Source of the DNA: Lachnospiraceae bacterium
GTDB taxonomy: Bacteria > Bacillota > Clostridia > Lachnospirales > Lachnospiraceae
Assembly: GCA_017448245.1 (NCBI GenBank)
Contig: JAFSLV010000039.1
Location: 1-44,669, forward strand
Reading direction: 5' to 3'
Length of the DNA stretch: 44,669 bases
The notes under the pieces: generated by a model
What the model saw: the letters and a program-made list of their open reading frames with translations, nothing else
What the model was told of the DNA's origin: nothing
The model's database searches: none
Made by a program: the position numbers and the translations under genes
Part shown: one piece after another, positions 115-36,293 of the stretch
How the letters are laid out: every line of letters begins with the position of its first letter
How positions within the stretch are numbered: position 1 is the first letter of the stretch

Positions 115-157
115 CCAACTGACAGTGAGCTTACACCATCGAGCGCATCCGATAAGA

Positions 158-187
158 TTGCACAAAACGCGCTTCTTATTGTATACT
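158..187 (+). promoter_or_regulatory. sigma-A type promoter for glgC-glgD-metF
   Basis: TTGCAC at 158-163 and TATACT at 182-187 are separated by 18 bp. The expected start of transcription is near 194, about 34 nt before the glgC ATG. No riboswitch-sized leader is present. Confidence 0.5.
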
Positions 188-227
188 GGATTTAAATCAT
201 TATGTACACAAAAGGAGCGTGGCGGTC

Positions 228-1508
228 ATGGTCAAAAAAGAGATCATAGCGATGCTGCTTGCGGGCGGACAGGGAAGTCGTCTGGGGATTCTGACCTCCA
301 AGATGGCAAAACCCGCAGTGTCTTTTGGCGGAAAATACCGGATCATCGATTTTCCGCTGTCTTCGTGTATCAACTCCGGCATCGATACGGTCGGGGTGTT
401 GACACAGTACAGACCCTTAAAGCTCAATACGCATATCGGAATCGGGATTCCCTGGGATCTGGACCGCAACATCGGCGGCGTTTCGATTCTGCCCCCGTAT
501 GAAAAAATGGAGCACAGCGAGTGGTACACCGGTACCGCCAATGCAATCTATCAGAATCTGGAATACATGGAGAGTTATCATCCCTCCTACGTGCTGATTC
601 TTTCGGGCGACCATATCTACAAGATGGACTACGAGGCGATGCTGCAGTTCCACAAGAAAAAGCAGGCAGGCATCACCATCGCCGTCATGCCGGTCGCGAT
701 CGAGGAGGCCAAACGCTTTGGCATCATGATCGCCGACGAGAATAAAAAGATCACGGACTTTGAGGAAAAGCCGGAGAGGCCGCGCTCCAATCTCGCCTCG
801 ATGGGTATCTATATCTTTGACTGGAAGGTGCTGCGCGATGCGCTCAAAGCCGGCAAGGATGTGCCGGGGCTCGATTTTGGCAAGCACGTCATCCCGTATT
901 GCAAAAAGCATGGCATCGGAATGTATGCCTATGAATTTGACGGATACTGGAAGGATGTCGGGACGCTGTCCTCTTACTGGGAGGCCAATATGGAGCTGAT
1001 CGACATCGTGCCGGAGTTCAACCTCTATGAGGAGTACTGGAAGATCTATACCAATAATGACATCCAGCCGCCGCAGTATTTCGGCGCGGAATCGGAGGTC
1101 GAGCGCTCGATCATCGGCGAGGGCACGGAGATCTACGGCAGGGTCTTCAACAGCGTGATAGGCCGGGGCGTCCGCATCGACAAGGGAGCGGTCGTCGACC
1201 ATTCGATCATCATGAACGGCACCGTGATCGGCGAAAACTGCCATATCCTCAAAGCGATCATCGACGAGAACGTGACGATCGGAGACAATGTAAGGCTTGG
1301 CGAGGGCGAAGAGGTGCCCAATGAGACCAGACCCGACATCTATACGGACGGTCTGGTGACGATCGGCGAAAATACGGTCATCCCCGGCAACGTCACGATC
1401 GGCAAAAACGTCATGATCAACGGATGGACGATGCGGGAGGATTACCCGGACGGGACACTCGCCTCCGGCCGTACCCTGGACAAGGAAGAAGAGGAGGTGG
1501 GCGCATGA
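228..1508 (+). CDS. glgC: glucose-1-phosphate adenylyltransferase
   Basis: GlgC joins ATP and glucose-1-phosphate to make ADP-glucose for glycogen synthesis. The 426-residue product begins with the nucleotidyltransferase motif [10 protein letters not shown] (residues 10-19), has SGDHIYKMD in the catalytic core and the DGYWKDVGT segment, and ends in a left-handed beta-helix from about residue 290. A GTG lies nine bases upstream at 219, but AAAGGAG (211-217) would sit only one base from it and ten bases from the ATG at 228, so the ATG is preferred. The stop overlaps the start of glgD by 4 bp (ATGA), implying translational coupling. Confidence 0.95.
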
Positions 1509-2650
1509 GAGCAGTGGGATTGATTCTTGCCGGCGGCTCCTCCAGCCGGATGAAGGAGCTGTCCAAAAAGCGTGCGGTCTGCGCGATGCCCGTGGCCGGC
1601 CTCTACCGGTCGATCGATTTTGCCCTGAGCGCGATGACCAATTCCAATATCCAGACGGTAGCGATCTTTATGCAGTATAACGCAAGGAGCCTGCAGGAGC
1701 ACTTAAGCAGCTCCAAATGGTGGAATTTCGGCCGTAAGCAGGGAGGTCTCTACCAGTTTTCCCCGACAATCACCGCGTCGAGCGGCATGTGGTACAGGGG
1801 CACGGCCGATGCGATCGGACAGAATCTCGATTTTTTGAAAAAGTGTCATGAGCCCTATGTCGTCATCGCCTCCGGCGACTGCGTCTACAAGATGGATTTT
1901 CACGACGTGCTCAATTATCACATCGAAAAGCAGGCGGACATCACCGTCGTCTGTAAGGATCTCGAGCTCGATGCGCCGGCGGAGCGCTTTGGCACGATCC
2001 GGATGAATGAGAACGGCAGGATCGAGGAGTTTGAAGAAAAGCCGGTCGTTGCCATGTCACATACCGTCTCCTGCGGCATCTACGTGTTGCGCAGGAGACT
2101 GCTGATCGATCTGATCGAAACCGCACAGGAAGAGGAGCGTCACGATTTTACGCGGGATATCCTGGTGCGCTACCGTCATGTCAAAAAGATCTACGGCTTC
2201 AAGATGAAGGAGTACTGGCGCAATATCGCGTCGGTCGAAGACTATTACCGCACCAACATGGACTTTCTCAAACACGAGGTGCAGCAGTATTTCTTCCGTG
2301 ATTATCCTTCGATTTACACCAAGGTGTCGGATCAGCCGCCCGCCAAGTACAATGTGGGCGTGCGCGTGAAAAACGCATTGATTGCCTCCGGCTGCATTCT
2401 GAACGGCACGGTGGAGGATTCGCTGATCTTCAAGGAATCCTTCATCGGGGAAGGGAGCTATATCAAAAATTCCATCATCCTGAACGACGTGCATATCGGC
2501 GATCACTGCAGGATCGAAAACTGCATTGTGGAGAGCCACTGTACAATTGCGTCCGGTACGGAGTATACCGGTACGGACGGTATACGGATCGTTGCGGAGG
2601 AAGGAGACCGTTACGACATCCTGGGAGACACCGGCAATGAAGATACGTGA
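1505..2650 (+). CDS. glgD: GlgD, GlgC-like regulatory subunit of ADP-glucose pyrophosphorylase
   Basis: This 381-residue protein is a GlgC paralogue in the same operon. Its N-terminal loop is altered ([20 protein letters not shown] instead of the canonical GGQGSRL type), as is usual for GlgD. In several Firmicutes GlgD is poorly active alone but forms a more active hetero-oligomer with GlgC. That is family knowledge, not visible here. [10 protein letters not shown] and the C-terminal beta-helix are retained. A longer open frame extends upstream inside glgC, but the ATG at 1505 overlapping the glgC stop gives the expected N-terminus. It is followed by metF, whose start overlaps its last codons. 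Confidence 0.92.
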
Positions 2651-3497
2651 GATTCTCACCGCAAAGCGTCCGACCCTTTCCTTTGAAGTGTTCCCGCCCA
2701 AAAAGGAAGACGCGTTTTCTTCCGTCGAAGACACGGCACTTGCGATTGCCTCTCTGAAGCCCGACTTTATGAGTGTCACCTACGGCGCGGGCGGGGGCAC
2801 GAGCCGCTATACCGCAGAGATCGCTTCGCGCATCCAGGAGAAAAAGAAAATCCCCGCCATTGCGCATCTCACCTGCGTCTCGAGCACCCGGCAGCAGGTG
2901 CATGCGGTATTAAAGGAGCTGCAGGAAAAGGGCATCGAGAACGTGCTGGCACTGCGCGGGGACATCCCGGAGGACGGCATCGTGTCCACGGATTACAGAT
3001 ACGCATCGGAGCTCGTTGCGGAGATCAGGGAAGTCGCACCGTCTCTTTGTATCGGAGCGGCCTGTTATCCGGAGGGGCATCCGGAGGCTTCTTCCGTCCG
3101 GGAGGATATCGCGCGTCTCAAAGAAAAGGTGGATGCGGGCGTGGATTTTATCACGACACAGCTCTTTTTTGACAACGAGCATTTCTATCATTTCCTGTAT
3201 CACCTCAGGGAGGCCGGCGTCACCGTGCCGGTGCTTGCGGGCGTCATGCCGGTCACGAAGACCGTGCAGCTCAGGCGTGCCGCCCGGATGGCAGGCGCCA
3301 CACCGCCCAAGAGGTTTCTGACGCTGCTCGACCGCTACGGGGACAATCCCGCGGCCATGGAGCAGGCGGGCATCATCTATGCGTCGGAGCAGCTTGTCGA
3401 TCTGATCGCCAATCATGTGAACGGGGTGCATATCTACACGATGAACCGGCCGGATGTGGCGGAGAAGATCCTCTCTCATATCCGTGTGCTTTTGTAG
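2637..3497 (+). CDS. metF: methylenetetrahydrofolate reductase
   Basis: MetF reduces 5,10-methylene-THF to 5-methyl-THF, the methyl donor used by the MetH encoded at 8755. The 286-residue product shows FEVFPPK near the N-terminus and YGAGGGTS, both typical of the FAD-binding TIM barrel. The start at 2637 is inside the end of glgD (14-bp overlap) and has GGGAG (2623-2627) about nine bases upstream; the longer frame begins with sequence unlike MetF. No metV follows. Its place behind two glycogen genes looks like shared transcription rather than shared function. It is convergent with folC after only 37 bp with no obvious terminator. Confidence 0.93.
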   Translation: MKIREILTAKRPTLSFEVFPPKKEDAFSSVEDTALAIASLKPDFMSVTYGAGGGTSRYTAEIASRIQEKKKIPAIAHLTCVSSTRQQVHAVLKELQEKGIENVLALRGDIPEDGIVSTDYRYASELVAEIREVAPSLCIGAACYPEGHPEASSVREDIARLKEKVDAGVDFITTQLFFDNEHFYHFLYHLREAGVTVPVLAGVMPVTKTVQLRRAARMAGATPPKRFLTLLDRYGDNPAAMEQAGIIYASEQLVDLIANHVNGVHIYTMNRPDVAEKILSHIRVLL

Positions 3498-3534
3498 ATG
3501 ATATAAGGGAGCGGGTGCGAAAGATAAGTGTCTG

Positions 3535-4854
3535 TCAGTCGCGCGTTGCGTTTCTGACGGCGGCACGGATTCTGCCCGCCATGTAGAGAGAGCCGAAGGC
3601 GACAACGGGGAGAGAACCTGCGAGGGCGTTCTGTACGGCGTCCTCGATCCGTGTATAAGGTGCCGCCTCCAGGCCCTTTTTTTGCAGGATGTCCGCAAGC
3701 TGAGCGGCAGAAAGCGCACGCGAAGAGTCGGGGGTCACACACAGAAATCGTGCGGCGTACGGGCGGAGCGCATCGATCATCCGGTCATATTTTTTGTCCG
3801 ACAGCACCCCCATCAGAAAGAGAACCCTTTGTCCGGGAAGAAACCGTGCGACGGATTCCGCAAGGGCCTGTGCGCATTGCGGATTATGTCCGCCGTCGAG
3901 GATGAAGGGGGGATCGAGTTTCAGCACTTCAAAGCGGGCAGGCCAGGACACATCCTTCAGTGCCTGCTGTACGTGGGAGGGCGTGATCGCAAAGCCCCGT
4001 CTGCGCAACACCTCTGCGGTCGTCAGTACCGTGGAGACATTTTGCAGCTGATAGGCGCCGGCGAGCGACAGAGTGACCGGAAGCCGGTCCGGCAGCAGGT
4101 AAGAAGTGTCTTCCCTCTCTTGTCCCTGGTCCTGCGGCTGCATCCAGAAAAAGGACTGACCGGCAAGCGTCGAGGTCAAAAGATCAACGCGGCCGGGCTC
4201 CGCCTGCGTAAACGTACAGCCTTCTTCCTGCGCTTTGGCGAGGACCTCCCGTCGCGCCTCCTCTTCCGCCTCGAGACATACCACGTCGCAGCCCTTCTTG
4301 ATGATGCCGGATTTGGTTCTTGCGATTTTTGCGAGGGTATCGCCGAGATATTCGGTATGCTCGAGACCGATGCGTGCGATGACGGCGACCTCGGGCGCCC
4401 GAATGACATTGGTCGCGTCGTATTCGCCGCCGAGCCCCACCTCGAGGACGACGATATCACACTGCATCCTTGCGAAATAGACCATGCCGATCGCACAGAT
4501 CAGCTCGAACTGGGTCGGATGATCCTCCATGCGGTCCGCGGCGTCACGGACCGTTTCCGTGATTGCGGCCAGATCTTCCTCGGAGATGTAGGTACCGCAG
4601 ATCTGGAAGCGTTCCCGGAAGTCTTCGATGTAGGGGGAGGGAAAGAAGCCCGTTGTATAACCTGCTTCGCGCAGGATGCGCTCGAGCATCGCACAGGTCG
4701 AGCCCTTGCCGTTTGAGCCGGCGACATGGACAAACCGCAGCTTGTTTTGCGGATTGCCGAGCATCTCCAGCAGAATGCGCGCACGGGTGAGCCCCAGCTT
4801 CCATTTGCTGAAGGAATGGTTTTCGATATAGGCTTTGGCTTCTTCAAAGGTCAT
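3535..4854 (-). CDS. folC: bifunctional folylpolyglutamate synthase / dihydrofolate synthase
   Basis: FolC adds glutamates to folates, which traps them in the cell, and in many bacteria also makes dihydrofolate from dihydropteroate. The 439-residue product is a Mur-ligase-type ATPase with the P-loop AGSNGKGST (residues 45-53), VVLEVGLGGEYDATNV in the central domain and a C-terminal DGGHNPQ motif. Its ATG overlaps the stop of folT by 4 bp. It is the last gene of the fhs-folD-folT-folC operon, so imported folate is polyglutamylated by the gene made next to the transporter. Confidence 0.95.
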   Translation of the reverse strand: MTFEEAKAYIENHSFSKWKLGLTRARILLEMLGNPQNKLRFVHVAGSNGKGSTCAMLERILREAGYTTGFFPSPYIEDFRERFQICGTYISEEDLAAITETVRDAADRMEDHPTQFELICAIGMVYFARMQCDIVVLEVGLGGEYDATNVIRAPEVAVIARIGLEHTEYLGDTLAKIARTKSGIIKKGCDVVCLEAEEEARREVLAKAQEEGCTFTQAEPGRVDLLTSTLAGQSFFWMQPQDQGQEREDTSYLLPDRLPVTLSLAGAYQLQNVSTVLTTAEVLRRRGFAITPSHVQQALKDVSWPARFEVLKLDPPFILDGGHNPQCAQALAESVARFLPGQRVLFLMGVLSDKKYDRMIDALRPYAARFLCVTPDSSRALSAAQLADILQKKGLEAAPYTRIEDAVQNALAGSLPVVAFGSLYMAGRIRAAVRNATRD

Positions 4855-5369
4855 GACTCAATCATGCGGCGTGCCGCGGGAAGCAGTTGTCTCACAAACA
4901 AAAAGACAACGATGAATTGCAGGGGGATCATCACGAGTACCTGCGTGATGCGCACCGGGATCAGCGCCCGGTAAGGGGAACCGTACGTGATCGAGATCCA
5001 GAGGGTCTGCAAAAAAAGGCTGAGCGCGATCTGATTGACCAGGATCGCAAGCACCGTCCGGAGTACGGACTGCTTCCCGTGCAGAAAGAGTCCGTAGACG
5101 AGGCCCGTGAGCGCCGCGGTCAGCGTGAATCCGGGAAAATAGGGACCGGTCGGGACGAGCAGCATCCCGATGATGTCACCGAGTGCGCCGACAAGGGCTC
5201 CCGCAACGGGACCAAAGAGGATCCCCGCGCAGGCAAGCGCGCAAAACGCAAAGCCGATGCGCATGTTCCACGCGTTGATCGACAAAAAGCGCTCAAGTAC
5301 AATATAAAGCGCCGTGAGCAGGGAAAGAATCACGAGCGTTTTGACGGACGGTTTTTTCTGTGTGGACAT
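4851..5369 (-). CDS. folT: folate-specific ECF transporter S component
   Basis: A 172-residue membrane protein with about six hydrophobic segments. It matches the FolT type of energy-coupling-factor substrate-binding subunits (SINAWNMRIGFAFCALACAG; GDIIGMLLVPTGPYFPGFTL). Such S components bind folate and pair with a shared EcfA-EcfA'-EcfT module, not present in this window. The start MSTQKKP at 5369 is chosen because the upstream extension is charged and unrelated, although no good ribosome site precedes it. It overlaps folC by 4 bp and lies 44 bp after folD, which supports a folate substrate. Confidence 0.85.
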   Translation of the reverse strand: MSTQKKPSVKTLVILSLLTALYIVLERFLSINAWNMRIGFAFCALACAGILFGPVAGALVGALGDIIGMLLVPTGPYFPGFTLTAALTGLVYGLFLHGKQSVLRTVLAILVNQIALSLFLQTLWISITYGSPYRALIPVRITQVLVMIPLQFIVVFLFVRQLLPAARRMIES

Positions 5370-13850: not shown

Positions 13851-13890
13851 TATGATAGGGGTACTTGTACCACAAGAGAAGGGAGTCATC
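13851..13890 (+). promoter_or_regulatory. promoter -10 and ribosome site for the DUF2130 gene
   Basis: TATGAT (13851-13856) is a good -10 box; no convincing -35 box lies 17 bp upstream. A small perfect dyad GGTAC-TT-GTACC covers 13859-13870, about where transcription would begin. GAAGGGAG precedes the ATG at 13891. The rest of the divergent gap 13734-13850 shows TATA-rich sequence facing the diguanylate cyclase gene but no clear box pair. Confidence 0.35.
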
Positions 13891-15138
13891 ATGCAGGAAA
13901 TCAAGTGTCCCAAATGCGGCGAGGTCTTTGCGGTCGACGAGAGCGGTTATGCCGCGATCCTGAAGCAGGTGCGTGACAGGGAATTTGACCGGGAGGTCAG
14001 GGAGCGTCATGCGCAGTACGAGGAGGAAAAAGAGGCGGCGCTGCGGACGCAGGAAGCAAAGGCCGGTGCGGACCTCGCACAGGCGCTTGCGAAAAAGGAC
14101 GCGGAGATCGCACGGCTGCAGATGCAGATCGGAACGGCAGACAGGGACCGGGAGCTTGCCGTGACCAGGGCCGTTGCCGCACAGGAAAAAGAACTCTCTT
14201 CCCTGAAGGAACAGATCGCGATTCTCAAAGGATCCGCGGAAAGCGCCGAAAAAGAGCAGAAACTCAGGGAACAGAGCGCAAAGGAGCGCTTTGAGGAACG
14301 CTTAAAGGAAAAGGACGAACAGATCGCCTATTACCGCGACCTCAAGACAAAGATGAGCACCAAAATGGTCGGCGAGACACTCGAGGTGCATTGCGAAAAC
14401 GAATTTAACAGGATCCGCGCCGCGGCGTTTCCGGGTGCCTATTTCGAAAAGGACAACGATGCACGCACGGGTTCCAAGGGGGATTATATCTTCCGCGAGG
14501 AGGCCGCGGACGGCACGGAAATCATCTCGATTATGTTTGAGATGAAAAACGAGACGGACTCGGGCTCCGTCAAGCATAAAAACGAGGAATTCTTTAAGGA
14601 ACTCGACAGGGACCGGCGCGAGAAAAACTGCGAGTACGCGGTACTCGTGACGCTTTTGGAACCCGACAGCGATCTCTATAACGCGGGCATTGTCGATGTC
14701 TCCCACCGCTATCCCAAAATGTATGTGGTAAGACCGCAGTTTTTCATTCCGATCATCACGCTCTTAAGAAATGCCGCGCAGCAGGCACTTACCGCAAAGC
14801 AGGAGCTTGCGCTGGTGCGCAAACAGCATCTGGATATCGCGCGCTTTGAAGAAAATATGGAAGACTTTAAAAAGGGCTTTGCACGTAACTATGAGCTCGC
14901 AAGCCGCAGGTTTCAGACGGCGATCGACGAGATCGACAAGACGATCGATCATCTGAGAAAGACCAAAGAAGCGCTTTTGTCCTCCGAAAACAATCTCCGC
15001 CTTGCCAACAACAAGGCGGAGGAGCTGACCATCAAGAAACTCACAAAGGGTGCGCCCGGGATGCTCGAGCGCTTTGAGGCGCTAAAGGAAGAAAAGTCGG
15101 CCACGGAAGATAACAAAGAAGAAAACGACGCGGATTAA
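13891..15138 (+). CDS. DUF2130 family protein, probable PD-(D/E)XK nuclease fold with coiled coil
   Basis: A 415-residue protein. It opens with a single CPKCG knuckle (C6, C9), continues as a long charged coiled coil (about residues 25-155) and then enters a conserved domain with STKMVGETLEVHCENEFN, D198 (KGDYIF) and E217-M-K219 (MFEMKNE). The spacing D-E-x-K fits the PD-(D/E)XK nuclease superfamily, which I infer; catalysis is unproven. A second helical part closes the protein. The start 13 codons into the open frame is chosen for AAGGGAG just upstream. Its stop codon overlaps that of the convergent DUF4867 gene. Confidence 0.75.
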   Translation: MQEIKCPKCGEVFAVDESGYAAILKQVRDREFDREVRERHAQYEEEKEAALRTQEAKAGADLAQALAKKDAEIARLQMQIGTADRDRELAVTRAVAAQEKELSSLKEQIAILKGSAESAEKEQKLREQSAKERFEERLKEKDEQIAYYRDLKTKMSTKMVGETLEVHCENEFNRIRAAAFPGAYFEKDNDARTGSKGDYIFREEAADGTEIISIMFEMKNETDSGSVKHKNEEFFKELDRDRREKNCEYAVLVTLLEPDSDLYNAGIVDVSHRYPKMYVVRPQFFIPIITLLRNAAQQALTAKQELALVRKQHLDIARFEENMEDFKKGFARNYELASRRFQTAIDEIDKTIDHLRKTKEALLSSENNLRLANNKAEELTIKKLTKGAPGMLERFEALKEEKSATEDNKEENDAD

Positions 15139-27247: not shown

Positions 27248-28097
27248 AGAAGCAAACATGACCCATCCGGCCGTCAAAGTCCTGCTGGGAGTGCTGAAAT
27301 GGATACTGATCGTATTTTTTGCGGTCTATACGCTGTTTCCGCTGATCTGGCTTGTGATCTCTTCGCTCAAGACCAACTTTGAGTTCCTGGCGGGTTCGCC
27401 CTTTGCGCTGCCGGCGGTGCCGCAGTGGCAAAACTATGTCAACGCGCTGGCGGTCGCGGGACTCGGGAGGATGCTCTTAAACTCCGTCTTTGTCGGTGTC
27501 GTCGCGACCCTCTTCAACGTCATCGTCGCCTCGATGAGCGCCTACTGCATCTCGCGCTTCAGGTTTGCAGGCAGGGAAAAGATCTTTGTGCTCTTTACGG
27601 CGGGGATCCTCGTTCCGCTGAACGCGCTGATGGTACCCTACTTTGTCATCATCAACCGGCTCGGCCTCTACAACACCTACGGCGGCATGATCTTACTGTA
27701 CTGCGCGATCGGCATTCCGATCTCGACCTTCCTCATCCGCGGGCTCATGGACTCCATTCCGATGGAGGTCGAGGAAGCGGCCTATATCGACGGCTGCGGG
27801 TTCTTCGGCAGGTTTTTCCACGTGATTCTGCCGCTTTCGAGGACCGGCATCGTGACGGCGGCGACCTTTGAATTCCTGACCTGCTGGAACGAATTTGTCT
27901 TTGCCAACCTCATCATTTCTTCCGAAAAGCTGCGCACCATCCAGGTCGGGATCCGTTACTTTACCAACCAGTTTTCGACCGACTATGTCTCGATGTATGC
28001 CGCGATCGTGATCTCCATCATCCCTTCGATCCTCGGCTACATCTTCTTCCAGGAGCAGATCATCTCCGGCATGACGAGCGGCGCCGTCAAGGGCTGA
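27240..28097 (+). CDS. sugar ABC transporter permease (MalG-like)
   Basis: A 285-residue inner-membrane protein with six transmembrane segments and the coupling motif EEAAYIDGCGFFGRFFHVILP. The ATG at 27240 overlaps the end of the first permease by 8 bp and has GAGGG upstream. No ATP-binding subunit follows or occurs elsewhere in the window, so the importer must share an ATPase such as an MsmX-like protein encoded elsewhere. This is the last GC-rich gene before the island. Confidence 0.92.
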   Translation: MTKEANMTHPAVKVLLGVLKWILIVFFAVYTLFPLIWLVISSLKTNFEFLAGSPFALPAVPQWQNYVNALAVAGLGRMLLNSVFVGVVATLFNVIVASMSAYCISRFRFAGREKIFVLFTAGILVPLNALMVPYFVIINRLGLYNTYGGMILLYCAIGIPISTFLIRGLMDSIPMEVEEAAYIDGCGFFGRFFHVILPLSRTGIVTAATFEFLTCWNEFVFANLIISSEKLRTIQVGIRYFTNQFSTDYVSMYAAIVISIIPSILGYIFFQEQIISGMTSGAVKG

Positions 28098-28120
28098 GCG
28101 CGCTTGATCGGCGCGGAGAT

Positions 28121-28149
28121 ACGAGTTTCCGAACACAAACACTCGTTTT
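28121..28149 (+). terminator. terminator-like hairpin at the island edge
   Basis: ACGAGT (28121-28126) pairs with ACTCGT (28141-28146), followed by TTTT. The stem is 6 bp with a 14-base loop, so it is weak. Its 3' arm is part of the first copy of the 22-bp tandem repeat. Confidence 0.3.
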
Positions 28150-28178
28150 GAATGTCAACACAAACACTCGTTTTGAAT
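28132..28178 (+). repeat. two tandem 22-bp direct repeats upstream of the precursor promoter
   Basis: Identical copies beginning AACACAAACACTCGTTTT lie at 28132-28153 and 28157-28178, with a period of 25 bp. The second runs into the -35 box. Placement and helical spacing suggest binding of a dimeric activator, but a duplication at the island junction is also possible. Confidence 0.8.
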
Positions 28179-28206
28179 TGACATATTATGCCTTTTGTGA
28201 TATAAG
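28178..28206 (+). promoter_or_regulatory. promoter of the precursor peptide and RiPP operon
   Basis: TTGACA (28178-28183) and TATAAG (28201-28206) are 17 bp apart. The transcript would begin near 28213, and GGGGGTG lies 7 bases before the precursor ATG. Confidence 0.7.
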
Positions 28207-28229
28207 TTTCATATCATGGGGGTGACAAA

Positions 28230-28388
28230 ATGACTAATAAAAAAATGAAAAAAGACGTTAAAAAAGATATCATTAAAGTCAAGGATTTGATTATTCGTGA
28301 GATTAAGATTAAAAATGAAGCAGGACAGAGAGATAAGCTTATGTATGCTATCACATGTGATTGCGTCCACAAAATGTCGTTCAATTAA
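28230..28388 (+). CDS. candidate RiPP precursor peptide
   Basis: A 52-residue peptide not resembling any family I know. The first 30 residues are rich in lysine and isoleucine (MTNKKMKKDVKKDII, then KVKDLIIREIKIKNE) and would form an amphipathic leader helix. The end reads ITCDCVHKMSFN with two cysteines at 43 and 45. There is no double-glycine site and no protease domain in the nearby exporters. It is the first gene after a strong promoter, has a good ribosome site, and lies 113 bp before the SPASM radical SAM gene, the usual position for a precursor. The role is inferred from context. Confidence 0.6.
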   Translation: MTNKKMKKDVKKDIIKVKDLIIREIKIKNEAGQRDKLMYAITCDCVHKMSFN

Positions 28389-28427
28389 TCTTCTTTTTCG
28401 TTCTTTTGTCAGGTCGGATTCTCTCAC

Positions 28428-28445
28428 GCCATTTTCTGGCTTTTT
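28428..28445 (+). terminator. weak terminator or attenuator after the precursor gene
   Basis: GCCA (28428-28431) pairs with TGGC (28437-28440) around TTTTC, followed by TTTTT. The stem is short, which would allow partial read-through so that the precursor is made in excess over the enzymes. The rest of the gap 28389-28501 shows nothing else. Confidence 0.3.
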
Positions 28446-28501
28446 CTTCCGTGTATGATTCCGTATATCTTTTGATAATGTCAGTTTGTTGAGGTATTAG
28501 T

Positions 28502-29812
28502 ATGACTAATTATATGAGTTGCATAGAAGAGAGAGACCATGTTTTTCTGTTTAACAGTATGGTTGGTGGAGGAATTGTTTTTGACAGAGCTATTATGCAA
28601 TATTTGGATCATTCAGCGCAGGACTATCGTTGCGTTTATTTGAAGAATTCGTGCCCTGAAGGTGTTAAGAAGTTGCTTTTTGAAAAGGGCCTGTTGAATA
28701 CTTATCCGTCCAGAAGAATCAATGAAACTGTTTCTGAAACAAACACAGATAAAGAAAAAGCGAAAATGATAGGAAGTTTAAGGCTCACGTTGACAAATAA
28801 TTGTAACTGTGTGTGTGAGTATTGTTATGTTGATCGGGAATACCATGATAAAAACTTTCTGAGCGAGAAAGATAGTTGCTATTTCATTGAAAGAATTATA
28901 AAAATGGGCGGCAATTCTAAATACGTAATACGTTTTTTTGGAGGAGAGCCCATGCTATATATGGACACCATTAGCAACGTCATTAAGTATTGTAATGAGA
29001 AGTTAAACGATATGTCCTTCGAGTATATTATTAACACAAATTTGCAAACAGTGACAAATAGTTTCTTCGAAATAGTTACAAAACCAAACGTGAAAGTTGT
29101 TGTTAGCTTAGATAGCGTAAAAGAAATAAATGATGTCTACAGACGATCTCTTGTGGCGGATAGTTATTATGATACAACGGTTGCAAATCTGAGAAAGATA
29201 ACAAAGGAGAATGCAAATTACGTTGTTGCCGCTGTTGTCACAAATATGAACAGGAAAAGCATACAACAGTTTTTGGAACTATTAGTTAAAAACGGTGTAA
29301 AAAATGTGGGTCTCAATTGCGCGAGAATGTCAGGAGAGGATATCCTGTCTTTCGACGAAGAGCTAGTGAATGATTTATATAGTGCCTATATTTGGGGAGT
29401 CAACAACGGAATTAATGTATCGGGATATTGGATGTTACCCTTTGAACGCATTTTTACCGGATCAGATGGTTTTTACTGTGGCGGACTAGGATTTGAATTG
29501 GATTTGAGGCCGGATAGAAAGATCTATTCGTGCGTTGGTGCAAAAAAACCAATAGGATCGCTTGATAAGATTGAGGAAATCTTTTCAGGAGATGATTACA
29601 GGCGGATTGGGCAGAGAAAAGCGGGGAATATAAAAGAATGTAGTGATTGCTATATCAATGGATTATGCGCTGGAGAATGCGCATGTAACGCTGAGTATAA
29701 AACCGGAAACTACTGGGGTATTGATAAAAATCAGTGCTTCTTTCATCAGTCTTTGACGGAGAAACTAATCAAATATCATATTTTGTCCGCAGATAGAATC
29801 GAGCATGGATAA
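28502..29812 (+). CDS. radical SAM/SPASM peptide maturase
   Basis: A 436-residue enzyme. The N-terminal part (1-90, HVFLFNSMVGGGIVFDRAI) looks like a precursor-recognition winged helix region. The radical SAM cluster is C101-x3-C105-x2-C108 with an extra C103, followed by FFGGEP (145-150). The SPASM domain has C326, C344 and the signature C380-x2-C383-x5-C389-x3-C393, then C395 and C412, enough for two auxiliary iron-sulfur clusters. Such enzymes form thioether or carbon-carbon crosslinks in ribosomal peptides. GAGG is eight bases before the ATG. The stop overlaps the next gene. Confidence 0.9.
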   Translation: MTNYMSCIEERDHVFLFNSMVGGGIVFDRAIMQYLDHSAQDYRCVYLKNSCPEGVKKLLFEKGLLNTYPSRRINETVSETNTDKEKAKMIGSLRLTLTNNCNCVCEYCYVDREYHDKNFLSEKDSCYFIERIIKMGGNSKYVIRFFGGEPMLYMDTISNVIKYCNEKLNDMSFEYIINTNLQTVTNSFFEIVTKPNVKVVVSLDSVKEINDVYRRSLVADSYYDTTVANLRKITKENANYVVAAVVTNMNRKSIQQFLELLVKNGVKNVGLNCARMSGEDILSFDEELVNDLYSAYIWGVNNGINVSGYWMLPFERIFTGSDGFYCGGLGFELDLRPDRKIYSCVGAKKPIGSLDKIEEIFSGDDYRRIGQRKAGNIKECSDCYINGLCAGECACNAEYKTGNYWGIDKNQCFFHQSLTEKLIKYHILSADRIEHG

Positions 29813-31628
29813 CCGTCAGATGAAAAGAAAAGAATCAATTAGTCTCATTCTCTATTATACAAAATTGTGGAAAAAGGTTTTCCCACACTTTTTGCCTTTT
29901 TTGTTTTTATCAAGTCTGCTGTTTATGTTGTCATCAGTTGCTGAAATGATTTTTTCTGTCCGCATTATCACATTAGTAATAGATCGATCGGTTGAAGACG
30001 TGCATTTTATAATTGCATTGTCAATTATTCTTTTAGCTGGAAAAGTGTGGAGTGAGTTTGCAGATGCAAAATTTCAATCAGTCGGCGCAAGTGTATTGTC
30101 GTACGTGCAGAATTGTTTTGTGGTAAGAAGAATCACAAACATGCCATACGAACAATTGGTTAGTGGATCCATGCAAAACAGAATCGCACGCGTTAGTCAA
30201 ATTGTGCGCGGGGGTGATTCTAGTGAGATTAATCAATTCGGTCGGATCATTTGGAGGGAATTAACATGTATCCTTGGTATCTTTACGTTGGTATCTTATG
30301 TATTTAAGATTAACAGCGTGATTCTTATTGTTGTGAGCGCCGTAGCTGTCTTTGAATACTATATACAAAGAAGAAGTGTAAAGAAGGCAGATGACGTTCA
30401 AAATAGCAGAGATTATATTGAAAAGAAGATTCGCTATATTAACAAAGTTTTGACAGACAAGGCCTATTCACATTCGATGCGAACAGGTAAAAACTGTAGA
30501 TTCGTATCTGGAAAATTCGAGTCAGCGTTATTCGAAAAAATGAGTAGTATAAAATTAGAACATAAATATGTATTTAGAGGGAAGATAATTGTGTCATTTC
30601 TTAAACTATGCAGAGACATAAGCGTTATATCCTTTGTTTTGTACTATAGTTTGTTGATGAAAAGACAGTCATTTTCTGAAATCGTAATGATGCTTTCGTC
30701 AATAAAATTGTGTGCAAATTGGACAACAGAAATTATTGTGTATTCCACAAAACTATATGCAGCATGCTTGCAGATTAAAGTGATCAAAAGATTTATTCTC
30801 GAGTTGTCAACCGATAACTCAGTCAATATGTCTGTGGAAAAAAGCGAAAATAGTCAGTTTCAAATAGAATTTAAAAATGTTGGATATAAATATCCGAACG
30901 ATGAAAAGTGGATTATACGTAACATAAATCTTACAATTCGGAAAAACCAAAAAATTGGTATAGTGGGTTTTAATGGTGCCGGAAAAACCACACTTGCACT
31001 GGTGCTTCTTGGCCTCTTGAAACCAACAGAAGGGAGAATTTTGATCAATGGTGTCAGTACTGATATCGTTCCATTTTCTTATTTCACGAGCTTGTTTTCG
31101 CCTGTTTTTCAAGCATTTAGAATGTATCCTACAACCATCCTTTCCACGGTTTCCTGCGGCGAGCCCGAAACTATATCTCAACGAGAAAGTATTGTAAATC
31201 TGCTTATGCAAACTCCGCTATACAGAAGAATCGAAGACCTAAAGAGAGGTGTTGACACGAGCCTTGTTGCACAATCTCAAAACTATGCGATAGATTTATC
31301 AGGCGGGGAGGCACAGTGGCTAATGTTAATCCGGGCGCTGTATAAAGAACGAGATTTTCTGCTTCTTGATGAAACGAACGCACCCATGGATGCGTTTGCA
31401 GAAGCGAATATGTACGAGACGTACAAAAGGTTTACCAAGGGGAAAACTGGGATTTTTGTCTCACACCGACTTGCGTTTAGCAGGGTTTGTGACCGTGTAA
31501 TCTTTGTTGAAAATGGAAGAATAATTGAGGATGGTTCTCCTGATGAATTGTTAGAAAAAGGTGGACCGTATTCAGAATTATTAAATACACAGATTGGCGC
31601 ATATAACAAGGGAAACAAGAATGAATAA
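29805..31628 (+). CDS. ABC half-transporter 1 (membrane and ATPase domains)
   Basis: A 607-residue exporter-type protein with about six transmembrane segments (residues 25-320) and an ATPase domain. Walker A is GFNGAGKTT (388-396), signature LSGGEAQ, Walker B FLLLDE with the catalytic glutamate, and the switch histidine in SHRL. The D-loop is unusual: DETNAPMDA replaces the common DEPTSALDP type. There is no peptidase C39 domain. With the next gene it probably forms a heterodimer that exports the modified peptide. The ATG at 29805 overlaps the maturase end by 8 bp; a second ATG at 29820 is possible. Confidence 0.88.
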   Translation: MDNRQMKRKESISLILYYTKLWKKVFPHFLPFLFLSSLLFMLSSVAEMIFSVRIITLVIDRSVEDVHFIIALSIILLAGKVWSEFADAKFQSVGASVLSYVQNCFVVRRITNMPYEQLVSGSMQNRIARVSQIVRGGDSSEINQFGRIIWRELTCILGIFTLVSYVFKINSVILIVVSAVAVFEYYIQRRSVKKADDVQNSRDYIEKKIRYINKVLTDKAYSHSMRTGKNCRFVSGKFESALFEKMSSIKLEHKYVFRGKIIVSFLKLCRDISVISFVLYYSLLMKRQSFSEIVMMLSSIKLCANWTTEIIVYSTKLYAACLQIKVIKRFILELSTDNSVNMSVEKSENSQFQIEFKNVGYKYPNDEKWIIRNINLTIRKNQKIGIVGFNGAGKTTLALVLLGLLKPTEGRILINGVSTDIVPFSYFTSLFSPVFQAFRMYPTTILSTVSCGEPETISQRESIVNLLMQTPLYRRIEDLKRGVDTSLVAQSQNYAIDLSGGEAQWLMLIRALYKERDFLLLDETNAPMDAFAEANMYETYKRFTKGKTGIFVSHRLAFSRVCDRVIFVENGRIIEDGSPDELLEKGGPYSELLNTQIGAYNKGNKNE

Positions 31629-33453
31629 AACAACTCATGGAACCCATGGGCGATTAATAAGCTTCTTTGGAGAAATATATTCAGACCAAAAAAGCCACTT
31701 TATAATTGCGGTTGTCAGAGAATTTATAATATCCATAAAACCGTTTATTTCGTTAATTGTAGTCAAACTGGTTATTGACATGATGGTCAACCACGATGAA
31801 ACAATTCTTTGTTTGTTATATGCAGTATTTACATACATAGGGGCTTTTTTCATTGATTTGATTGAGGCAAAGACCAACTCCGTATGCGGCGAGTTTGAAC
31901 AAAAGATAATGGATCAAATTGTTTTCGAGAAGAATAAGTCTTTTTTGAATCTGGATCTTGGCACTTTTGAGAGTGAAGAAATTCAATCTCTGATGTCTGA
32001 AATGACATATCTTGAAAGTCATGGAACAAGCGCAGTCCATAAATTAATAGTTCTGCCAAGCCGTATTGTAGCTAATATAATATCAACTGCAGTTATTCTC
32101 TGCGTAGTTGTTCGGCTTTTTTTTCATAGCGCACAAGGTGGAGAGCATTATATCAACATAACGTTTGTATTTGTGACGGTAGTAATAAGTATAGCTTCGC
32201 ATGTGTTATTTGTGAAATTTCTAAAGAAGTCAACGGAGTTTATCGAAAATGACGGACAAGCTAAAATGAAAAGAATAGCTGCGGTGTCAGACTATATTTA
32301 TGACATACATTCCGGTGCGGACATACGTTACTATAATGAATGTCTAGTTACACAAGGATCTGATGAAATTAGAAAATTAAGTAAAGAAGTTTACAATTGC
32401 TTTTGGAATAATATTGCAAAAGCATCATCTTTTAGTACAATTGGAAACGCAATTGTCTTTATGTTCGTGTATGGATTTGTGGCAGAAAAGGCTTTGCGCA
32501 GCAGAGTGTCTATGGGAAATGTTTTTCTTTATGCCGGGTTATTAAACAGTGTATATGGCAAGGTATCATCCATTGTTAAAGATCACGCTACTTTGATTGG
32601 CGGAGATGAGTATCTAAAAAGACGACAAAAGATAGATGGTTTGTTAATGGAAAGTGCGTCCCGGAGGCGCACATCTGGATTAACGGAGTCTCTTTCTGAA
32701 CAAAAGGATGGTGTGATTGAGTTTAGAAATGTTTATTTTAGATACAATGATGATACGGAATACATTCTGGAAAACATCACGTTTTTTCTTGACATACATA
32801 AGATGACAGTGATTGTGGGATTAAATGGGGCAGGAAAAAGCACTATAATTAAGCTGCTAATGCGACTTTACAAACCAACTAAAGGGCATATTTATTATTG
32901 TGGACAAGACATTTTTTCTCTAACCAAAGAGCAGTATTTCAATGTTGTTAGTGTGGTTTTTCAGCAGGAAAAGCCGCTCTCCTTTTCGGTAAGAGAAATC
33001 ATAGATCCAAATGAATACTACGAAGACAGAGTAATATTAGATACTCTCTCAGCTGTTAATGGAAATAATAAGAAGACGAATGAATTGACGCTGGACACAT
33101 ATGTTTTCAGCGAGTATGAGACGCATGGGCGAGAGATTTCAGGCGGGGAAATACAAAAAATACTGCTAGCAAGAGCGATGATAAACAAGAGTTGCTTTAT
33201 GATACTGGATGAGCCGTCGGCTGCGATGGACGCAAAAGCAGAAAAAGAGTTTAACGACCTTATGTACAATGAAAAGAATAGTCGGGGTATGCTGATTGTA
33301 TCACACCGTTTGTCAATCTGTGTATCATGCGATAAAGTTATCGTTTTAGATAAAGGAAGAATGGTGCAGGAGGGCAAACATGATAGCCTGCTCTTGGATA
33401 AGAATGGACTGTATTATGAACTCTGGACAACACAGCTTGAATTATACAAGTAA
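31621..33453 (+). CDS. ABC half-transporter 2 (membrane and ATPase domains)
   Basis: A 610-residue exporter-type protein, clearly different in sequence from its neighbour. It has about six transmembrane segments and an ATPase domain with Walker A GLNGAGKST, signature ISGGEIQ, Walker B MILDEPSAAMDA and SHRL. The start at 31621 follows AAGGGA and overlaps the preceding stop by 8 bp; nine upstream codons in the same frame have no ribosome site. Exporters of peptides or immunity pumps fit the context; the substrate is not shown by the sequence. Confidence 0.88.
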   Translation: MNKTTHGTHGRLISFFGEIYSDQKSHFIIAVVREFIISIKPFISLIVVKLVIDMMVNHDETILCLLYAVFTYIGAFFIDLIEAKTNSVCGEFEQKIMDQIVFEKNKSFLNLDLGTFESEEIQSLMSEMTYLESHGTSAVHKLIVLPSRIVANIISTAVILCVVVRLFFHSAQGGEHYINITFVFVTVVISIASHVLFVKFLKKSTEFIENDGQAKMKRIAAVSDYIYDIHSGADIRYYNECLVTQGSDEIRKLSKEVYNCFWNNIAKASSFSTIGNAIVFMFVYGFVAEKALRSRVSMGNVFLYAGLLNSVYGKVSSIVKDHATLIGGDEYLKRRQKIDGLLMESASRRRTSGLTESLSEQKDGVIEFRNVYFRYNDDTEYILENITFFLDIHKMTVIVGLNGAGKSTIIKLLMRLYKPTKGHIYYCGQDIFSLTKEQYFNVVSVVFQQEKPLSFSVREIIDPNEYYEDRVILDTLSAVNGNNKKTNELTLDTYVFSEYETHGREISGGEIQKILLARAMINKSCFMILDEPSAAMDAKAEKEFNDLMYNEKNSRGMLIVSHRLSICVSCDKVIVLDKGRMVQEGKHDSLLLDKNGLYYELWTTQLELYK

Positions 33454-34189
33454 GACATGCAACTTGGTGGAAGAATTCCACATAGACTTTCTTAACGATG
33501 ACATCCATCGTGCGATGGAGAGATTTGAACGGAGAGTGGAGGATGTTCTTCTGCTTGATAGCATTGAAGCATATTCCGTTTTTGAACTGCTTTTAATTCT
33601 GCTCCTTCGTGACAATATTTGTTCGTCAGCAGAGCTGATCAATGTGATGAAAAGGCTCGCGATGTCAATCAACACCACATGTTGTTTAAATGCGCAGAGG
33701 TGGGAGGCAGAATACTATTATATGATCGGAGACATCCGGAGGGTGAAAGAAATACTATTAAGACTAAGAGATAGCGACATAGATAAAATGGATGAAGCGA
33801 CATATGAGGGTATTGTAAACCTGGCTCACAGAGCTATGATTGCGAACGAGAGTATAACGATACCATGGAAACGCTATCCTTCAATTAAGAAGCATGATGA
33901 TTTAGCTGTTAAGATAAAATTCAATGATGCTGTTAATAAATATCAGATGCAACAATATGAGTTGGCAAAAACACAATTCTCCTGGGTGTGCAACAACACA
34001 AAGAATTCGTTAATCAGGGGATATTGCCATGTTTATCTATCAAGGATGGAAAAGGACATAAATAAAAAACTGATTGTTTTAGACGAAGCAGCAGCCTGTT
34101 TTTCTGCCGCAGGCAGTGAGCGAATGAAAAACTATATTGGTGAACAAATATGCACATTAAAGGAAATGACAAATGCTAAAAATGGTTGA
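33416..34189 (+). CDS. unrecognised helical protein in the RiPP operon
   Basis: I do not recognise a family. The 257-residue product is almost wholly alpha-helical by composition, with repeating aromatic and alanine positions (NDAVNKYQMQQYELAKTQFSW, KLIVLDEAAACFSAAGS) that look like degenerate TPR-type repeats in the second half. No signal peptide, membrane segment or helix-turn-helix is seen. It could be a precursor-binding helper, an immunity protein or a peptide-sensing domain. The start is uncertain: ATGs at 33380, 33404 and 33416 all lie inside the preceding gene, and GGA before 33416 gives the best ribosome site. Its end overlaps the next gene by 17 bp. Confidence 0.6.
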   Translation: MNSGQHSLNYTSKTCNLVEEFHIDFLNDDIHRAMERFERRVEDVLLLDSIEAYSVFELLLILLLRDNICSSAELINVMKRLAMSINTTCCLNAQRWEAEYYYMIGDIRRVKEILLRLRDSDIDKMDEATYEGIVNLAHRAMIANESITIPWKRYPSIKKHDDLAVKIKFNDAVNKYQMQQYELAKTQFSWVCNNTKNSLIRGYCHVYLSRMEKDINKKLIVLDEAAACFSAAGSERMKNYIGEQICTLKEMTNAKNG

Positions 34190-34940
34190 TAAGCTGATGT
34201 CGGCAAATAATATAGTTTTTTATGTTACACAAATGTGTAACATTTATTGTTGGCATTGTTACAATGATGCCGGGGGGTCAACTGAAACCCATTCCAAAAC
34301 CGTGCTCGGCATTGCCGAAAAGATAAAAAACGGCAGGTTCAATTATGTTTCCATATCTGGAGGAGAACCATTATGTGAGCCTAATCTTAGCATAAGTGTG
34401 GCGAATATACTTAAACGCGAAGGAAGGCGAGTAGCCCTCTTGTCCAATGGGCTTTTAATACATGATAAGAACATAATAAAGTTGAAAGATGCTTTTACAG
34501 ATTTTCAAATATCAATAGACATGCCGGAGGAAGCCTATGCTTCATGCTTCAAGGGGTGTAAAGGCTATCGAGAGAGGATGGGAAAAGTTATAAAACTACT
34601 TGATGAGTCAAATATAAGCGTGGTATATACGCATGTTCCGAACATACATAATCATAAGATAGATGAATATTTCGAATCATTTTTCTATCCGGGAGTCAAA
34701 GCTTTGAGATGTCAATTTCCATATGAACGAGGCAGAGCATCGGGAAAAAACGATGTGATGCTAGATGAAATCGGTATTTGTGAATACATTGATGCGTTAA
34801 ATCGGATAAAGGATAAGTACAAAATAGAAATAACAGTATTCTTTCCGAGCAATGCGACTAAAGGGGACTACTATATCAATTATTTAGGAGATGTTTATAA
34901 TGGCATTTTCGGATCATCTTACTGTGGCAGGATAGAGTAG
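34173..34940 (+). CDS. short radical SAM protein without SPASM domain
   Basis: A 255-residue protein with the radical SAM cluster C22-x3-C26-x2-C29 (QMCNIYCWHC) and SISGGEPL. It ends abruptly at SSYCGRIE, where related peptide maturases continue into a cysteine-rich SPASM or twitch domain. Only one late cysteine remains. It is either a naturally short partner of the first maturase or truncated by the island junction, since the next base is the rarA start. AAGGA precedes the ATG. AT-rich like the rest of the island. Confidence 0.8.
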   Translation: MLKMVDKLMSANNIVFYVTQMCNIYCWHCYNDAGGSTETHSKTVLGIAEKIKNGRFNYVSISGGEPLCEPNLSISVANILKREGRRVALLSNGLLIHDKNIIKLKDAFTDFQISIDMPEEAYASCFKGCKGYRERMGKVIKLLDESNISVVYTHVPNIHNHKIDEYFESFFYPGVKALRCQFPYERGRASGKNDVMLDEIGICEYIDALNRIKDKYKIEITVFFPSNATKGDYYINYLGDVYNGIFGSSYCGRIE

Positions 34941-36293
34941 ATGGGACAGATGTCTCTTTTTCATTCGCAAATCGAAGAGAGCAAGCCTCTCGCGGAGCGG
35001 CTGCGCCCGAAAACACTCGATGAGTTTGCGGGACAAAAGCACCTGACCGGAGAGGGGAAGGTCTTACGCCGCCTCATCGAAAAGGACATGGTCTCCTCGA
35101 TGATCTTCTGGGGCCCCCCGGGCGTCGGCAAGACGACGCTTGCGCGGATCATCGCGGAAAAAACGAAGGCCGAGTTCATCAATTTTTCCGCGGTCACGAG
35201 CGGCATCAAGGAGATCCGCGAGGTCATGAAGCAGGCGGACGAAAACCGTTTTTCCGGGATCCGCACGATCGTCTTTGTCGACGAGATCCACCGCTTCAAC
35301 AAGGCGCAGCAGGACGCGTTTTTGCCCTTTGTCGAAAAGGGCGCGATCATCCTGATCGGCGCAACGACGGAAAATCCCTCGTTTGAGATCAATTCGGCGC
35401 TTCTTTCGCGCTGCAAGGTCTTTGTCTTACAGGGTCTTACGGAGGAAGACCTGTATGCGCTTCTTGTCAGGGCGCTTCGGGACGATCGGGGCTTTGGCAC
35501 GCAGGAGGTGGTCATCGAAGACGATGACCTGCATCTGATTGCGGCCTTTGCCAACGGCGACGCGAGGACGGCGCTCTCGACGCTCGAGATGGTCATCTTA
35601 AACGGCGACATCCGTGTATCGGGAAAAGGAAAAAACGCAAGAGAGACGATCACCGTCACCGGAGAGATCATCGAACAGTGTATCTCCAAAAAATCCCTGC
35701 TCTATGACAAAAACGGCGAAGAGCATTACAACCTGATCAGCGCCTTACACAAATCGATGCGCAATTCCGATCCCGACGCCGCGGTCTACTGGCTGGCGCG
35801 CATGCTCGAGGCGGGCGAGGATCCTCTGTATATCGCGCGCAGGATCGTGCGCTTTGCGTCGGAGGATGTGGGACTTGCCGATCCGAGAGCGGTGGAACTC
35901 GCCGTTGCCTGCTATCAGGCCTGTCATTTCATCGGAATGCCGGAGTGCAGCGTGCATCTGACCGAGGCCTGCGTATATCTGTCGCTTGCGCCCAAGTCCA
36001 ACGCCTGCGACAGGGCCTGGATCGAGGCGAGCAGTGACGCGAGGCAGATGCTCGCGGAGCCGGTGCCCCTGCAGATCAGAAACGCGCCGACGAAGCTCAT
36101 GAAGGAGCTCGGATACAACGCGGGCTATCAGTATGCGCATGATTACGAGGAAAAGATGACGGCGATGGAGTGTCTGCCCGAAAGCCTGGCCGGAAGGGAA
36201 TACTATCACCCGACGGAGGAAGGGGTCGAGGGACGCTTCAAAACGAGAAACGAACAGATCAAAGCCTGGAAGGAAAAGCAGCGAAGGAACTGA
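34941..36293 (+). CDS. rarA: replication-associated recombination protein A
   Basis: RarA (MgsA) is an AAA+ ATPase that acts at stalled replication forks and contacts single-strand binding protein. The 450-residue product has LAERLRPKTLDEFAGQ, Walker A GPPGVGKTT (58-66), Walker B IVFVDEIHRF, sensor GATTENPSFEINSALLSRC and the C-terminal YQYAHDY tetramer region. It begins one base after the radical SAM stop codon. AGGA eight bases upstream lies in the preceding gene, so its expression may depend on transcription from the island. A second ATG at 34950 gives MSLF. It abuts the convergent gene with no spacer. Confidence 0.95.
   Translation: MGQMSLFHSQIEESKPLAERLRPKTLDEFAGQKHLTGEGKVLRRLIEKDMVSSMIFWGPPGVGKTTLARIIAEKTKAEFINFSAVTSGIKEIREVMKQADENRFSGIRTIVFVDEIHRFNKAQQDAFLPFVEKGAIILIGATTENPSFEINSALLSRCKVFVLQGLTEEDLYALLVRALRDDRGFGTQEVVIEDDDLHLIAAFANGDARTALSTLEMVILNGDIRVSGKGKNARETITVTGEIIEQCISKKSLLYDKNGEEHYNLISALHKSMRNSDPDAAVYWLARMLEAGEDPLYIARRIVRFASEDVGLADPRAVELAVACYQACHFIGMPECSVHLTEACVYLSLAPKSNACDRAWIEASSDARQMLAEPVPLQIRNAPTKLMKELGYNAGYQYAHDYEEKMTAMECLPESLAGREYYHPTEEGVEGRFKTRNEQIKAWKEKQRRN

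Follow-up and report, generated by a model that had tools for sequence, protein, structure and literature searches.

Does an AT-rich block of genes in a genome of Lachnospiraceae bacterium encode a complete and unfamiliar system for a ribosomally synthesized and post-translationally modified peptide (RiPP), built around two radical S-adenosylmethionine (SAM) enzymes, as an earlier note had proposed? The block lies in a window of 44,669 nucleotides (nt), which is the whole of contig 35 (JAFSLV010000039.1, assembly GCA_017448245.1) of a 2.54-Mb genome with 99.47% completeness and 0.92% contamination. All the parts that had been named, a precursor-like gene, a SPASM maturase, two ATP-binding cassette (ABC) half-transporters (ABC1 and ABC2), a helical protein and a second radical SAM protein (rSAM2), were found in place; the description as a two-radical-SAM system was not supported, as rSAM2 appears to be cut off where its auxiliary-cluster domain would start, next to the host gene rarA. 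The reading that we favour, with somewhat better than even confidence, is a horizontally acquired radical SAM RiPP cluster, truncated at its 3′ end, in which one maturase is complete, the exporter is a heterodimer and the second enzyme is probably broken.

The GC content per 1 kb ranged from 0.344 to 0.397 in positions 28001–35000, against 0.505 to 0.619 in the other intervals listed, while the third-position GC content was 0.35–0.45 in the six island genes and 0.75–0.81 in three flanking genes. Segmentation with a 3rd-order Markov model, itself trained on this window, delimited the block with a log-likelihood ratio of 942, in keeping with the sharp difference from both flanks noticed earlier, and this foreign composition is best read as pointing to horizontal acquisition of the block from a foreign origin. 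The six genes all lie on the plus strand and, as had been described, overlap, although the overlaps run only from the maturase onward: maturase and ABC1 share 8 nt, ABC1 and ABC2 8 nt, ABC2 and the helical gene 74 nt, and the helical gene and rSAM2 17 nt, with the stop codon of rSAM2 abutting rarA (Table 1). No transposase or integrase was present among the six genes (gene list and Pfam), Rfam gave no match in 28000–35000, and a phage DNA search found none.

The break in rSAM2 is suggested mainly by spacing. From its first cluster cysteine to its end rSAM2 has 234 residues, whereas the 12 relatives compared (the proteins behind eight plasmid matches, three neighbours of these and the G895 protein) all have 298 to 442, so that the second, short radical SAM protein of the earlier note is indeed present but does not appear to be naturally short. 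A profile of the relatives aligned only to residue 230 of rSAM2, with 116 of 420 positions unmatched. C251 stands 229 residues after C22 and the frame ends four residues past C251, while the cysteine that opens an auxiliary-domain-like stretch lies 228–230 residues after the first cysteine in four relatives and 219–220 in two; in a wider set, with SPASM detected in 109 of 130 proteins, mostly generic maturases, the median spacing was 240. Because rSAM2 ends so shortly after C251 and its stop touches the rarA start, the junction is read as having cut the gene, and rSAM2 is probably a 3′-truncated SPASM/twitch enzyme, cut where the auxiliary-cluster domain begins. Several observations weigh against this. 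The first auxiliary cysteines of the relatives were placed by eye from a pattern, and they stand at 198–209 in CdA, PsA and PsC and at 238 in G895; NirJ and PpolA give only a later pattern match (312), and Agr and Ppol have earlier ones too (203, 207). MAFFT does not align C251 to the first auxiliary cysteine, and a pairwise alignment with PsA puts residues 228–242 of rSAM2 on the auxiliary-cluster domain; as both place the tail otherwise, it is the spacing from which the break point is inferred. Of ten relatives, three (G034, G928 and G920) have a rarA leader that the junction DNA resembles, and the other seven do not. Against the end of rSAM2, G034 reached a local score of 18 (3 of 1000 shuffles) and G928 one of 15 (42 of 1000), and G920 matched 9 of the last 13 bases; among 13 control starts in the window the values rose to 17 and to 8 of 13, and 20 of 799 ATG-upstream stretches match G034 as well. 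The junction DNA is therefore weak evidence for a break.

Table 1. Features of the AT-rich island and its right border in the window (aa, amino acids; RRE, RiPP recognition element).
Feature	Position	Strand	Basis or remark
AT-rich island	28125..34940	.	composition; edges approximate, segmentation 28146-34972
Two identical 22-nt direct repeats, candidate regulator sites	28132-28153, 28157-28178	+	start-to-start 25
Promoter-like TTGACA, 17 nt, TATAAG	28178..28206	+	read from sequence; first hexamer overlaps repeat 2 by one base
Candidate precursor peptide, 52 aa	28230..28388	+	Cys 43 and Cys 45 around Asp44 near C-terminus
Peptide maturase (radical SAM/SPASM), 436 aa, with possible RRE as N-terminal domain	28502..29812	+	Pfam, NCBIfam, alignment, tree
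Half-ABC exporter 1 (ABC1), 607 aa, no peptidase domain	29805..31628	+	Pfam, NCBIfam, motifs
Half-ABC exporter 2 (ABC2), 610 aa from ATG 31621, no peptidase domain	31621..33453	+	Pfam, NCBIfam, motifs
Helical protein, 269 aa, without family, at best resembling helical repeats	33380..34189	+	Pfam, fold model
Second radical SAM protein (rSAM2), 255 aa, probably without SPASM/twitch domain by 3′ truncation	34173..34940	+	spacing against relatives
Host rarA (MgsA_C domain), right flank	34941..36293	+	gene order kept in relatives

The first enzyme of the island is complete. Its radical SAM motif CxxxCxxC is formed by C101, C105 and C108 (Radical_SAM PF04055, 44.8 bits; cut-off 29.5), and the SPASM domain, the pattern of which comprises seven cysteines, by C326, C344, C380, C383, C389, C393 and C412. 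All the cysteines expected of a SPASM maturase, as the earlier note had it, are thus present, and all ten are invariant in a seven-sequence alignment. The best solved-structure match of the maturase, both by sequence and by model, was TigE of Paramaledivibacter caminithermalis (PDB 8VPO), to which it is 22–30% identical depending on the method. In a tree of 19 rows it fell into a clade of five rows (support 100/99) including TigE, where it groups with Planctomycete maturases found beside a TIGG-repeat peptide and with the G181 maturase found beside Cys-rich peptides; this placement is tempered by the tree's flags on G181 (long branch) and 8VPO (unlike composition). With the G181 maturase and its neighbouring Cys-rich peptides in the same clade, membership does not fix the chemistry. 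In the N-terminal domain, the sequence alignment with TigE runs from residue 2, and the model has a strand-strand-strand-helix order, but with a predicted local distance difference test (pLDDT) value below 50 for residues 12–80; structural alignment of the model starts at residue 53 with TigE, at 2–11 with SuiB and at 5 with SkfB. The best NCBIfam match was PapB (NF047865; 116.7 bits over residues 90–403, below the cut-off of 340), which was likewise the best model, below cut-off, for the TigE and G181 maturases, and the SCIFF model TIGR03974 scored 81.4 bits against a cut-off of 425. Neither the maturase (best 25 of 65 matches) nor rSAM2 (best 25 of 61 matches) attained the cut-off of any NCBIfam model, and a defence library returned only viperin profiles for the two proteins, at 44–56 bits. 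The view that the set matches no named RiPP class is supported by Pfam, NCBIfam, the defence library and a literature search.

Among the open reading frames (ORFs) of 18–120 aa on both strands of 28050–35000, the 52-aa ORF has the top Shine-Dalgarno score (8), and only two others reach at least 6, both inside ABC1. It lies behind the promoter-like sequence and the repeats and directly 5′ of the maturase, and its translation contains neither a TIG/TVG(G) repeat nor Cys-X3-Asp/Glu, with His and Met at residues 47 and 49. The small gene taken earlier as precursor-like thus keeps the rank of a candidate; against it stands that it has no known relative and might be a chance ORF. A promoter scan, the rule of which needs a final T, does not list TTGACA-17-TATAAG, and the promoter-like sites that it gave were not in excess (27 against 23.9 expected). 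The 22-nt repeat, searched with 21 of its 22 bases and up to three mismatches, occurs in its own genome at just these two places. As for the repeats being mobile-element ends, a reading that was set aside, the genome contained no reverse copy.

In both ABC proteins the Walker A, signature, Walker B and H-loop motifs are intact, and a Pfam search up to E 1 assigned no peptidase family to either, in line with the earlier note. A tandem ABC pair on plasmid CP026601, found with ABC1, is 26–34% identical to the island pair, and a single-protein scan of viral contigs with ABC1 gave no relative. The helical protein, described before as having no recognised family, indeed remained without a Pfam match up to E 10, subject to the filters of HMMER, and found nothing in the defence library; its single-sequence model is mostly helix (pLDDT 53), and a fold search ranked helical-repeat proteins best but non-significantly (best E 0.12), the model confidence being too low. 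The parts would work together as follows. The promoter beside the two repeats would drive one transcript, the Lys-rich leader of the precursor would dock on the N-terminal domain of the maturase, and the maturase would cleave SAM and, with its SPASM clusters, introduce one crosslink or two into the C-terminal core, Cys thioethers at the T-C-D-C stretch being the likeliest. Export of the modified peptide would fall to the ABC heterodimer, and the helical protein might be an accessory for immunity, a scaffold or a regulator. Formerly, rSAM2 would have had a SPASM/twitch domain, and it probably no longer works. Further genes beyond it, such as one for a leader peptidase, may be lost from the broken right end; leader removal elsewhere, a necessity in the earlier note, is for that reason no more than a possibility.

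The cluster would have inserted with a solute-uptake ABC operon on its left and rarA on its right. The genes 3′ of rarA (a D-Ala-D-Ala carboxypeptidase gene, trmB and a thioredoxin gene) have the same order in the nearest relatives G920 and G916, with rarA 88% identical, while the order upstream of rarA differs in both. A search at E 1e-60 for the permease to the left of the island found it in none of ten other genomes, several of them incomplete, so that the left edge is not comparable; taken together, these differences show the spot upstream of rarA to be variable. In G916 the counterpart of the DUF2130 gene of the window (13852–15138) is the immediate, divergently oriented neighbour of rarA, whereas in the window this gene is about 20 kb upstream of rarA and on its strand, so that the region between the two is rearranged. 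Against the favoured reading it counts that an empty site was not readable in the relatives compared.

The maturase matched at E 1e-18 or better in 110 of 392 genomes of the order, its own included, with only G181 prominent (3e-44; next 1.6e-26), and at E 1e-24 in its own genome alone among 398 genomes of the phylum; at most four candidates were scored per genome in these scans, and distant relatives were possibly missed. Five of six further close relatives had generic matches at 26–29% identity. Single-protein scans with the maturase found none in genome contigs or viral contigs, while alignment-guided scans gave 274 relatives in genome contigs, the best 80 at 22–28% identity, and 12 weak loci in viral contigs. 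The helical protein was found only in its own genome among the order and phylum genomes, and had no match in the plasmid collection, where rSAM2 had eight. Two fragments in G927, one of the 78 other genomes of the genus (E 3.6e-4 with internal stops, and E 0.008, all 79 genus genomes scanned), were taken as chance rather than as relatives of the helical protein. The cluster is best read as an orphan, unclassified member of a large known group. Small peptides beside radical SAM genes were also seen on plasmid p12B2_p3 of Vagococcus fluvialis (3083–5171: a regulator, a radical SAM gene and a peptide of 59 aa in which a stretch of 22 residues occurs twice), whose 6.7 kb otherwise hold mobilization, replication and one hypothetical gene, and on pAT1 of Aureibacter tunicatorum (647–3417: three DUF1843 peptides ahead of radical SAM and methyltransferase genes).

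Rather unlikely, though far from fanciful, is a complete cluster with two working radical SAM enzymes, in which rSAM2 would be a natural short enzyme without auxiliary clusters. Its frame is open, with a fair Shine-Dalgarno sequence (score 5), the overlap with the preceding gene and an intact CxxxCxxC, shorter radical SAM families exist, of which viperin (281 positions) was matched at 49.4 bits, and the junction supports a break only weakly. However, all 12 relatives examined are longer by 64 residues or more past the first cluster cysteine, the viperin cut-off is 180 bits, and the three best NCBIfam profiles, GeoRSP, NirJ2 and NirJ (325–354 positions), are matched only to position 142–205, with GeoRSP (TIGR04303) at 66.4 bits over positions 7–162 of 325 and a cut-off of 400. 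A truncated enzyme is hence the reading that we keep, with the caution that a radical SAM gene may be short through truncation when it borders a foreign island.

The lack of support for the precursor from any relative would also suit a non-RiPP reading, with the 52-aa ORF arising by chance and the maturase acting on another peptide or protein; SPASM enzymes act on proteins too, and the sulfatase maturase model was matched at 67.5 bits. That cut-off is 349.45 bits, however, the ORF has its strong Shine-Dalgarno sequence, promoter-like sequence and position, and full-length maturase relatives in G181 and at the Planctomycete locus L067 adjoin peptide genes, which makes this reading very unlikely. 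Even the sharp composition change, together with the fact that no relative was seen with the island or with an empty site (relatives compared; 79 genomes of the genus), might be ascribed to an assembly chimera foreign to the genome. Since the block lies inside one contig with GC-rich sequence on either side, two false joins would be required, in a genome of the completeness and low contamination given above, and such an artefact is most improbable.

TigE, which we take to be a cyclopropyl synthase, shares its clade with Planctomycete enzymes beside a TIGG-repeat peptide, whereas the island precursor has no such repeat. In one of these loci (L067, Planctomycetes GWA2_39_15, 150–4007), two TigE-like maturases in tandem and a fragment of a further radical SAM gene come after the TIGG-repeat peptide; the G181 locus (L026, 3978–8562) holds four tandem very Cys-rich peptides and a SPASM maturase, along with ABC genes and one acetyltransferase-like gene (names by eye). 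A literature search for TigE found no paper; 8VPO is listed in a passage of PMC12710340 among structures used for checking RRE models, and PMC9062424 covers TvgB, with its related chemistry on TVGG peptides. The candidate core has Cys and Asp in common with PapB substrates, but not Cys-X3-Asp/Glu, and PapB accepts Cys-Xn-Asp with n of 0–6 according to an excerpt of PMC9413430. The SCIFF system has a six-Cys peptide, compared with two Cys in the candidate. Asp-Cys is also the motif of radical SAM clusters 59 and 115 (Kostenko et al. 2022), described in PMC9062424; cluster 115 has several radical SAM enzymes, and the two carry a recombinase, or a peptidase and a hydrolase, this comparison being by description and not by sequence. 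The plasmid clusters of Clostridioides difficile p_TW11 (L181) and P. sordellii C171 (L182) resemble the island in having 2–3 radical SAM genes, a small Cys peptide and an ABC transporter, and their first radical SAM proteins are among the eight plasmid matches of rSAM2. They differ in having one ABC gene beside an S8 peptidase and full-length radical SAM enzymes, and against the maturase of the island their radical SAM proteins reach only E 4e-9 to 3e-5. The L182 cluster adjoins agr-like signalling genes.

It is quite unlikely that the island represents a RiPP class of its own, with a TigE-clade enzyme crosslinking a compact Thr-Cys-Asp-Cys core, a peptidase-less ABC heterodimer, a helical-repeat partner and a second enzyme working without an auxiliary-cluster domain. 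Novelty at the class level is not established, as the nearest maturases are TigE/PapB-like and large unclassified radical SAM clusters are published; the kind is already known from the parts consulted of PMC9062424 and of PMC10352776, the latter reporting tetratricopeptide-like genes in two Bacteroidales RiPP clusters. Because the maturase groups with both TigE and a Cys-rich-peptide maturase, at roughly 25–30% identity, its product would help to show how the TigE clade moved between chemistries.
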